Part shown: positions 24,396-26,828 of the stretch, piece by piece
How positions within the stretch are numbered: position 1 is the first letter of the stretch
How the letters are laid out: every line of letters starts with the position of its first letter
DNA from: Haloplanus salinus
Lineage (GTDB): Archaea; Halobacteriota; Halobacteria; Halobacteriales; Haloferacaceae
DNA: 64,000 bases
Assembly: GCF_003336245.1 (NCBI RefSeq)
Contig: NZ_QPHM01000001.1
Span: 62,001-126,000 of the forward strand
Reading direction: 5' to 3'
Translations under genes and position numbers: made by a program
Notes under the pieces: model-generated
Told to the model about the DNA's origin: nothing
Seen by the model: only the letters and a program-made list of their open reading frames with translations
The model's database searches: none

Positions 24396-26828
24396 ATGAG
24401 CGCGACAGGCGAGGGGATCACCGTACTACACGTTGACGACGACCCGGAGTTCGTCGACCTCGCGGCGACGTTTTTGGAACGAGAGGACGACGCGTTCACT
24501 GTCCGGACGGCGACGAGCGCCGCCGCGGGGGTCGACTATCTCGACGCGAACGACGTGGACTGCATCGTCAGCGACTACGACATGCCCGGCCGGGACGGGC
24601 TGGCGTTTCTGGACGCCGTCCGCGAGGATCACCCCGACCTCCCGTTTATCCTCTTTACCGGGAAGGGAAACGAGCAGATTGCGAGCCAAGCTATCTCGGC
24701 GGGCGTGACCGACTACCTCCAGAAGGACCGGGGCACCGGTCAGTACGCCGTCCTCGCCAACCGGATTCGGAACGCGGTCGACCAGTACCGCTCGCAGCGG
24801 GAGCTCGAAGCCAGCCAGAAACGACTCTCCCTGTTCGTCGAACAGTCGCCCCTCGGCGTCATAGAGTACACCAGCGAGTTCGAAATCGTCGGCCTGAACG
24901 AAGCCGGGGAGGAGATCCTCGGCTACACCGAGGAAGAACTCCGCGGCGAGACGTGGGAGAAAATCGTCAGCAGCGAGAGCTACGAGAACGTCGACGAAGT
25001 CACGTCGGCGCTGGCAGAAGCCGAGGGTGGCTTCCATAGCATCGACGAGAACGTCCGCAAGGACGGCGAGCGGATCGTCTGTGAGTGGCACAACCGCGTC
25101 GTGACCGACGACGACAGCGTGGAACGGAGTTCCACGAGCAATCGGCCACAGGCCGATGACGGCGACGTCGTCGCCGTCTTCTCCCTGTTTCAGGACATCA
25201 CCGAGCGCCGGGAGCGCCAGCGACGCATCGAGGCACTCCACGAGGCGACCCGCGACTTCATGGCGCTCGACTCACGGGAGGCGGTCGCCGAGCGAGCCGT
25301 CGAGACGGCACGGAGCGTCCTCGGGCTTCCGATAAACAGCGTCTACCTCTACGACGAGACAGCGGACGCGCTCGTCCCGACGGCGACGACCGAGGAGGCC
25401 ATCGATCTGATCGGCGAGCCGCCGACGTACGAACCGGGCGAGAGCCTTTCGTGGGAGGCGTTCCAATCGGGGGAGGTGCGCGTCTTCGAGGACGTCTCCG
25501 ACGAGCCGGGACGCTACAACCCGGACACGGCGTTCGGGGCGGAGATCATCCTCCCCCTCGGCGACCACGGCGTGATGTACGTCGGCGCGACCGACCCCGG
25601 CGCGTTCGGCGAGGCCGACGTGGCGCTGGCCCGGACGCTCGCCGCCAACGCCGAGGAGGCGCTCTCGCGGATCGAGCGCGAACGGACGCTTCGAGAGAGC
25701 CGGCGTCGGCACCGGACGCTCGTCGAGAACTTCCCCGACGGCGCCGTCTTCCTCTTCGATCACGACCTCCGGTACGTCCTCGCCGGCGGGGCGGAGCTGC
25801 CGTCGGTCGACCCCTCCGGCGACGACATCGAGGGAAAGACCTCTCACGACCTGTTCCCCGACGAACTCGCCGACGAACTCGCCGACAGCTACCGCGGGGC
25901 GCTGTCGGGGCGGCGCAACGCCTTCGAACGGGAGTTCCGGGGGGCACGGTACCGCATCCGGACCCTCCCGGTCCGTGACGAGGCGGGCGACATCGTCTCC
26001 GGCATCGCCGTCTTGCAGAACGTTACCGAGCGGGAACGGCGGGAGCGCGAACTCGCGCGACAAAACGAGCGCCTCGAGGAGTTCGCCAGCGTCGTCTCCC
26101 ACGACCTCCGGAACCCGCTGAACGTCGCCGAGGGACACGTCGACCTGCTTCGCCGGGACTGCGACAGCGAGCGTCTCGACACGATTTCGAGTGCCCACGA
26201 CCGGATGAACGCCCTGATCGACGACCTACTGACGCTGGCGCGGGAAGGACGCGAGGTAGGGTCGCTCGAACCGGTCGACCTCGACGGCTGTGTCGAACGC
26301 TGCTGGCGGAACGTCGACACCGCCGATGCGACGATCGAACTGCGGACGGATCGGACGATTCGCGCCGACCGAAGCCGTCTCCAGCAACTCCTGGAGAACC
26401 TGATGCGCAACGCCGTGGAACACGGCTCCACGAGCCCTCGGGCCAACGCTCCCGAGGACGCCGTGGAACACGGCTCCACGAGCCCTCGGGCCAACGCTCC
26501 CGAGGACGCCGTGGAACACGGCTCCACGAGCCCTCGGGCCAACACCCCCGAGGACGCCGTGGAACACGGCTCCACGAGCGACGGTGCCACCGTCGCCGTC
26601 GGCGCCGTCGACGGCGGCTTCTACGTCGAGGACGACGGCCCCGGCATCCCCGAGTCCGAGCGCGATATCGTCTTCGAAGCCGGGCATACGACCTCCGAGG
26701 ACGGCACGGGGTTCGGACTGAGCATCGTCGAACGGGTCGTCGAGGCCCACGACTGGTCGATTCGAGTCGGCGAGAGCGCGGTGGGCGGCGCCCGCTTCGA
26801 GATCACCGGCGTCGAGTTCGAAGGCTGA
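24396..26828 (+). CDS. Hybrid sensor histidine kinase REC-PAS-GAF-PAS-HisKA-HATPase with in-frame repeats
   Basis: An 810-residue soluble kinase. The REC domain (1-120) has phosphoacceptor Asp60 in CIVSDYDMPGRDG; a PAS (about 135-265), a GAF (270-425) and a second PAS (430-555) follow. HisKA carries His569 in [10 protein letters not shown], and the HATPase has N-box [20 protein letters not shown] and GTGFGLSIVE. A 48-nt unit is repeated right after the N-box (residues about 673-728, VEHGSTSPRANAPEDA type). One related 45-nt unit sits in the first PAS domain (residues 241-255, VERSSTSNRPQADD). The inserted array lies in the ATP-lid approach, so it may lengthen a loop. The signal sensed is unknown. 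Confidence 0.92.
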   Translation: MSATGEGITVLHVDDDPEFVDLAATFLEREDDAFTVRTATSAAAGVDYLDANDVDCIVSDYDMPGRDGLAFLDAVREDHPDLPFILFTGKGNEQIASQAISAGVTDYLQKDRGTGQYAVLANRIRNAVDQYRSQRELEASQKRLSLFVEQSPLGVIEYTSEFEIVGLNEAGEEILGYTEEELRGETWEKIVSSESYENVDEVTSALAEAEGGFHSIDENVRKDGERIVCEWHNRVVTDDDSVERSSTSNRPQADDGDVVAVFSLFQDITERRERQRRIEALHEATRDFMALDSREAVAERAVETARSVLGLPINSVYLYDETADALVPTATTEEAIDLIGEPPTYEPGESLSWEAFQSGEVRVFEDVSDEPGRYNPDTAFGAEIILPLGDHGVMYVGATDPGAFGEADVALARTLAANAEEALSRIERERTLRESRRRHRTLVENFPDGAVFLFDHDLRYVLAGGAELPSVDPSGDDIEGKTSHDLFPDELADELADSYRGALSGRRNAFEREFRGARYRIRTLPVRDEAGDIVSGIAVLQNVTERERRERELARQNERLEEFASVVSHDLRNPLNVAEGHVDLLRRDCDSERLDTISSAHDRMNALIDDLLTLAREGREVGSLEPVDLDGCVERCWRNVDTADATIELRTDRTIRADRSRLQQLLENLMRNAVEHGSTSPRANAPEDAVEHGSTSPRANAPEDAVEHGSTSPRANTPEDAVEHGSTSDGATVAVGAVDGGFYVEDDGPGIPESERDIVFEAGHTTSEDGTGFGLSIVERVVEAHDWSIRVGESAVGGARFEITGVEFEG
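25116..25160 (+). repeat. Single 45-nt two-hairpin unit inside PAS coding region
   Basis: It has perfect arms GTGGAAC-gga-GTTCCAC, then ATCGGCC-aca-GGCCGAT, and ends in GAC. Length and layout equal the 45-nt units at 45436-45525, though it lies in another protein domain. Confidence 0.8.
26412..26579 (+). repeat. Tandem 48-nt two-hairpin repeat array (3.5 units)
   Basis: Units start at 26412, 26460 and 26508, with a 24-nt partial unit at 26556. Each has arms GTGGA-N7-TCCAC and CCTCGGG-N8-CCCGAGG; the third unit differs in a few bases. The length is a multiple of three, so the frame is kept. Confidence 0.95.

Follow-up and report, generated by a model that had tools for sequence, protein, structure and literature searches.

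Mobile palindromes that lie in frame within genes have been described in Rickettsia and a few other bacteria, and haloarchaea carry PATE, or IS200/IS605-derived elements, which are non-autonomous, palindromic and hundreds of base pairs long. Suyama et al. are said to have found, in 2005, palindromic elements with coding potential in Methanocaldococcus jannaschii. Rickettsia palindromic elements (RPE) are described as palindromes 105-146 bp in length, bounded by terminal inverted repeats some 12 bp long and present in frame in many unrelated protein genes and also in RNA genes, with activity retained by one tested host protein; the same source mentions archaeal repeats fused to protein genes (PMC2229807). 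REP sequences of the CGTC and GTAG super-families are palindromes of 20-40 bp lying within and between genes of hosts named from bacterial phyla; many unlike stems are built on one plan, and the CGTC type, which has no dedicated transposase, shows an unpaired CGTC at one end, a stem of 8-9 bp, a loop of 4-5 and a CCA tail (PMC3733652). Coding hairpins of up to 284 bp, with protein function kept, are described in nematomorph mitochondrial genes (PMC6649704).

The locus described here lies in a 64,000-nt stretch of Haloplanus salinus DNA, which was analysed as a whole and is called the window below. The repeat very probably consists of several copies of a small mobile haloarchaeal element that is built of two palindromes and usually measures 45 nt. 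Its closest known counterparts are the in-frame palindromes of bacteria, RPE and REP. The element resembles RPE in being a palindrome found in frame in unrelated protein genes, with empty sites, and differs from it in being archaeal, in consisting of two adjacent and separate hairpins over 45-53 nt, and in being concentrated in one catalytic motif, which it re-encodes. It is, like REP, a short, many-copy palindrome found both between and within genes, with many unlike stems on a single plan, and when reversed it reads GTC then a hairpin, which recalls CGTC REP if the fourth base is that of the target; its stems of 8 and 7 bp and loops of 3 nt nevertheless depart from the CGTC plan, and its unit is made of two unlike hairpins in a fixed head-to-tail order. 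Unlike REP with RAYT, it also occurs in genomes without a resident Y1 transposase match (see below), and it does not combine terminal inverted repeats with target site duplication, as a MITE does. It shares with copy-variable tandem repeats a copy number varying among close relatives, with the M. jannaschii palindromes an archaeal host and a location in protein genes (the R2 model described below has no match outside the haloarchaeal order in a 196-genome phylum sample), and with PATE its haloarchaeal, palindromic and non-autonomous nature, whereas its TnpB right-end copies are insertions that sister IS copies lack, not IS ends. The nematomorph palindromes likewise lie within coding sequence that is kept along with protein function, but they are far longer and are not presented there as small units with empty sites (PMC6649704). 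Our search of titles and abstract openings, with subscription journals mostly outside its reach, returned no description of a haloarchaeal double-hairpin element. What is new is the two-hairpin unit with free stem sequence, its class-wide archaeal range, its insertion at a TnpB right end and its re-encoding of the N-box at the very site that it splits.

The initial annotation had reported three 48-nt units and a half unit right behind NLMRN, at 26412-26579, in the 810-aa kinase, where they are in frame, and this is borne out by Tandem Repeats Finder (26410-26579: period 48, 3.5 copies, 98% matches, score 326) and by unit alignment (Table 1). It had also deduced a recent duplication or gene conversion from the identity of units 1 and 2; a recent tandem duplication is supported, the half unit being likewise identical. 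The changes in copy 3 (position 37 G>A, position 39 T>C) alter one residue (A>T). Copy 1 folds as two hairpins (z -3.49), and the half unit consists of the first hairpin without the second and holds the displaced native VEHG. The array ends shortly before the HATPase_c match, which starts at residue 721. Its units measure 48 nt instead of 45 because the loop of their second hairpin is longer, and one pair of the consensus first hairpin is broken in them. Copy number, whose constancy in relatives the annotation had named as counting against it, is not constant (3, 1, 0): within the genus, the orthologue has 3 units here, 1 in G106 and G074 and 0 in G101 and G090, while G116 has a single degenerate 15-residue unit and G062 has 3 units, but in a kinase of different architecture.

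Table 1. Positions, in the window, of the element copies and of the genes that carry them.
Feature	Position	Strand	Remark
261-aa flavin reductase-like gene, one element copy	17774..18559	-	FAD_binding_6
Diverged copy in flavin reductase-like gene, GGEQRSAGNRSETGD	18269..18313	-	R1 36.2 bits
810-aa hybrid kinase ORF	24396..26828	+	receiver, PAS, GAF, PAS, HisKA, HATPase_c matches
Element copy in PAS region of 810-aa kinase, SVERSSTSNRPQADD	25116..25160	+	R1 60.5 bits
NLMRN of kinase N-box	26397..26411	+	insertion point immediately 3' of second Asn codon (AAC)
Element copy 1, 48-nt variant, AVEHGSTSPRANAPED	26412..26459	+	R1 44.1 bits
Element copy 2	26460..26507	+	sequence identical to copy 1
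Element copy 3	26508..26555	+	2 substitutions, both in second-hairpin loop
Half unit AVEHGSTS	26556..26579	+	identical to first 24 nt of unit; R1 34.4 bits over 26556-26612
395-aa receiver-kinase bearing second array	44638..45825	+	
Element copy 1 of second kinase, 45 nt	45436..45480	+	
Element copy 2 of second kinase, 45 nt	45481..45525	+	followed by native SVEHGG

Three related places had been missed (25116-25160, 45436-45525 and, on the minus strand, 18269-18313), the first being a second, independent insertion into the 810-aa kinase, in its first PAS region. Hits to the hairpin pattern GTGGAACNNNGNTCCAC, with at most 2 mismatches and either strand allowed, number 14 in the window, where 2.67 are expected; none of 100 shuffles reaches that count. 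An origin of the array from the N-box alone is not supported, since the element also occurs in the PAS region, in the flavin reductase-like gene, at the TnpB right end and in at least 10 further unrelated protein genes; the earlier reading was right in its observation and incomplete in its interpretation. Simple duplication of the N-box segment in tandem, through slipped replication or unequal recombination and with no mobile element involved, would agree with the identity of units 1, 2 and the half unit, with the homogeneous arrays also seen at two other loci (L114 and L166) and with the similarity of the native VEHG to the first hairpin, but it does not fit the presence of the unit in genes devoid of an N-box, nor the second hairpins of orthologues, which are wholly different in sequence and still palindromic. 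Empty sites outside N-boxes (see below) refute it as the whole account, and we consider it highly improbable as such, while duplication is the likely cause of local copy number.

The mobile double-palindrome element is a discrete unit with fixed ends, AGC and GAC, and two conserved hairpins, lying between bases that are adjacent in relatives. It opens with AGC and closes with GAC; between them lie a first hairpin with a stem of 8 bp, a linker of four bases and a second hairpin with a stem of 7 bp, the loop of each hairpin measuring 3 nt. The whole is usually 45 nt or 15 codons long, with versions of 48, 51 and 53 nt. Pairing is found in 96.2% of paired cells over 61 copies (55 of the 114 kinase units, picked for diversity, and 6 others; set A1), against 85.2% after shuffling, and falls to 28-43% when the partner is shifted by 1-3 columns; changes on both sides are seen in 9 of the 15 pairs, and the covariation score of 0.356 (0.152 when shuffled) is reached by 0 of 500 shuffles, these shuffle tests overstating independence because the element sequences are related to each other. 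In another set of 22, of which 14 lie outside N-boxes, pairing amounts to 96.4% and covariation to 0.483 against 0.188 (0 of 500 shuffles).

In the peptide V-E-H-[GS]-S-T, three stem pairs have a third codon position on either side. Among the 40 distinct units whose loci were retrieved with a protein or a profile as query, complementarity holds for V3-S3 in 33 (19.4 expected; 0/2000 shuffles), for E3-G3 in 28 (17.9 expected; 0/2000) and for the preceding codon with T3 in 26 (20.1 expected; 11/2000), and none of six mismatched control pairs is raised in these 40 units; over 85 units outside the strict pattern, the mismatched control E3-S3 is slightly up (26 against 20.5; 37/2000). GTG-GAA-CAC-GGT-TCC-ACG and GTC-GAG-CAC-GGC-TCG-ACG thus encode one peptide with two different perfect stems. 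The second hairpins of orthologues can have a completely different sequence with the palindrome kept, orthologous copies differing by coordinated multi-base changes. Older copies decay, as exemplified by the diverged copy of the flavin reductase gene (18269-18313), whose pairs are broken. An apparent alternation of first-hairpin types between neighbours (64 of 83 pairs against 49.6 shuffled, 0/2000, mostly at pattern-selected loci) was discarded as search-pattern bias, as it is gone in arrays fetched by protein or profile (21 of 33 against 20.0, 870/2000).

These coordinated differences, together with the many similar copies per genome, could also be mutational in origin: correction templated by the hairpin, or gene conversion between copies, would keep palindromes perfect with neither selection nor recognition by an enzyme. 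By itself, such a process leaves insertion at new sites unexplained, and we regard it as rather unlikely. Alternatively, the hairpins could act in mRNA or single-stranded DNA, in transcript stability or as a protein-binding site, selection keeping the pairing and spreading the units. The survival of pairing through synonymous double changes inside kinase genes and the similar hairpins of intergenic arrays (see below) would suit such a role, against which stand the pairs lost by the flavin reductase gene copy and the absence of the element from many orthologues of each carrier gene; this role is unlikely.

The mobile element is carried by many unrelated genes, where it keeps to a single reading frame, and by noncoding DNA. 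In the host family, a strict pattern finds 97 distinct places in 50 of the 148 genomes, and its backward control 0 places in the same 148. A crude rule first sorted these places into 66 HK, 11 TnpB and 20 other, the latter being re-sorted by eye into 12 kinase N-boxes, 2 TnpB-like, 5 in-frame others and 1 unclear; this leads to 78 kinase N-boxes, 13 TnpB/IS right ends, 5 in-frame places elsewhere in proteins and 1 unclear, with a pattern biased towards the N-box type. R2, a covariance model built from 22 copies of which 14 lie outside N-boxes, has 40 matches in the H. salinus genome. Kinase N-boxes account for 20 of them, TnpB/IS right ends for 3, the PAS region for 1 and other protein genes for 10, while 4 are intergenic or at a gene end, contexts having been read for 38 of the 40. 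Among a phylum sample of 196 genomes and at E <= 1e-5, R2 matches 26 genomes, all from the order of the window, and no genome outside that haloarchaeal order. R1 at E <= 1e-3, a loose threshold with rough E-values, matches 206 of the 242 class genomes and 61 of the 74 genera; it also gives 24 matches in 15 of 80 named loci fetched by kinase protein, among them loci of Haloferax, Halorubrum, Natronomonas, Salinigranum and Haloplanus. No stretch fits the exact pattern in viral contigs. At L282 (Haloferax gibbonsii ATCC 33959), the translated N-box array contains X (unread bases), probably an assembly problem due to the repeat.

Intergenic head-to-tail arrays of single and double hairpins are seen in genus g14 (L383-L386, L390-L393), where they adjoin a longer repeated stretch (ctcgcgcgtgc...) and may be a source or a regulatory array. 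Two 53-nt intergenic versions (L338 and L339; G000:C1 1716964 and 413606) have longer second stems and are embedded in another repeated sequence, with the motif TTTCAGTCCCACCC. Two tandem copies (L246 and L253; G000:C1 1753884-1753973) contain TAG in the sense frame and terminate the open frame at whose 3' end they lie.

Comparison of filled and empty sites shows the element to be an insertion and defines its ends. At the TnpB right end, exactly 45 extra nt are present in 3 of 13 loci, the flanking bases being adjacent in the other 10, of which 6 encode a TnpB with 84-93% identity to the query. In the flavin reductase gene, exactly 15 extra codons are present in 3 of 12 genus genomes and the site is empty in 9 (the site pattern matched 14 of 30 loci, 12 of which are the counted genomes); the filled gene reads VDG, 15 codons and VEETGYY, and the empty one VDGVEETGYY or VDGVEESGYY. 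The copy is present in G074 and G096 and absent in G106, although the G106 gene is the most similar, so that the copy has either been lost or exchanged, or been gained on more than one occasion. The PAS-region site of the 810-aa kinase is filled in G000 and G106 and empty in G074, G101, G083 and G024. Among 82 kinases, 46 have no unit, with 23-25 residues from the insertion point to the ATP-binding motif, and unit-bearing N-boxes are longer than empty ones by about 15n residues. At L389, a 45-nt copy of another, non-kinase type is nested in frame between the two hairpins of an N-box copy. No clear target duplication is found, the empty sites having no constant duplication beyond AC, GAC or GGC, which may be the element's own bases; the left neighbour is often RRC, with GCC, GAG and GAT found too. 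Movement within one species was not seen in these comparisons.

Two ideas on its mobilisation and origin were set aside. A resident Y1 transposase, of IS200/IS605 or RAYT type, is unsupported by co-occurrence as the present mobiliser: among 20 listed genomes without a match to it (PF01797), 17 have R1 matches and 8 have at least 10, while a past action of such a transposase in trans is possible. A derivation of the kinase repeats from TnpB guide-RNA ends is rejected, sister TnpB elements being without the 45 nt at 10 of 13 loci; the insertion is antisense to tnpB, between its stop codon and a stretch whose match to Rfam sot0042 scores only 28.1 bits, under the gathering threshold of 88. At the locus concerned (L018, 5110-5154), the element lies antisense between the stop of TnpB (PF07282) and the omega-RNA-like right end and is absent from sister copies; an altered guide RNA is conceivable there.

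Within proteins, sense phase 0 has Pfam support in all 12 non-kinase carriers scanned, 3 of which (Pyr_redox, abhydrolase, MFS) belong to other genomes in the genus; the remaining matches are NUDIX, Rieske, FAD-oxidase/Fer4/CCG, HerA-like, FAD_binding_6, CxxCxxCC, 5-FTHF cyclo-ligase, DUF7097 and DUF7573. None of the five antisense frames scanned has Pfam support. Over 74 copies, sense phase 0 is hydrophilic with a net charge of -3.4, and antisense phase 0 is hydrophobic with a net charge of +1.7 and a stop in 0 of 74 copies; as this antisense phase is stop-free yet unused, stop avoidance alone is insufficient to explain the frame. Selection for a peptide suiting halophilic proteins would account for it, helped by insertion behind RRC, which usually ends a codon in haloarchaeal genes (AAC, GAC, GGC, AGC). 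Insertions behind such trinucleotides would then land mostly on a codon end, and those read in other frames would be lost, because only sense phase 0 gives a short, hydrophilic, acidic and stop-free peptide that a halophilic protein would tolerate. Two paralogous FAD-oxidase/Fe-S genes (L251 and L252, the frame of the latter being taken from the former) carry the element at one shared site with different first stems, and this pair is a natural record of the divergence of two arms.

The kinase N-box (RN/AVEHGG) is where the element would survive especially well, since its first hairpin spells VEH and would restore the split motif; head-to-tail copies would then build up there through further insertion or duplication. 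The element in kinases encodes VEH, so that insertion after RN rebuilds the N-box, and the preceding codon is AAC, for the second N-box Asn, in 65 first units, an Asn that the search expression demanded. N129, N133 and the His137 of the first copy are invariant in 46 aligned kinases; given this invariance of the Asn pair and of the first-copy His, the copy adjoining RN most likely functions as the N-box, with the native VEHG moved downstream. In the predicted kinase core (mean pLDDT 84.4), the N-box helix is intact up to the first-copy His and is followed by unstructured residues (139-192, pLDDT 47-58), then by the next strand; judging from this model, the added residues are probably a disordered and near-neutral loop.

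The initial annotation had suggested that copy number could tune kinase activity; on such a reading, units would be retained as an adaptive rheostat because loop length at the ATP site sets this activity. The variable copy number of orthologues, the insertion between the N-box helix and the next strand, and the location of 20 of the 40 copies of the genome at kinase N-boxes would be in line with this proposal. The disordered loop predicted next to an intact helix would nevertheless fit near-neutral tolerance at least as well as tuning, and both the presence of the element in unrelated enzymes and noncoding DNA and its patchy presence over the kinase tree speak against such a role, which we consider very unlikely. 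In a tree of 81 kinases (duplicate row L157 excluded; labels of L128, L130, L134, L136 and L152 set by hand), the element label requires 16 changes (bootstrap 14-18; about 21 when shuffled), and at least 5 of the 16 are forced by starred branches, gain and loss being indistinguishable in this tree. A single origin of the label is found in 0 of 200 bootstrap trees of these kinases, whose copies may partly come from common ancestors or have been swapped by gene conversion.

One possibility, which goes further than the mobile element as such, is that the 45 nt are a target-restoring selfish DNA, the first hairpin of which would have evolved towards VEH, so as to enter the catalytic site of dozens of histidine kinases and rebuild their N-box, the double-hairpin fold, kept via synonymous double changes, being the moving form. 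We put this forward as a tentative proposal, somewhat doubtful as it stands. Homing introns, to which this rebuilding can be likened, restore their own target.

A class-wide archaeal family of only 15 codons leaves its mark on proteins: redox enzymes, a transporter and a helicase-like ATPase have received it, the ATP site of sensor kinases has done so repeatedly, and the 'repeats' of many haloarchaeal kinases are copies of this element, not domain features. Because its pairs fall on the third positions of codons that stay constant, the element distinguishes unusually cleanly between selection acting on the nucleic acid and selection acting on the protein. As empty sites exist in near relatives, its movement and its cost are directly testable in cultivable haloarchaea.
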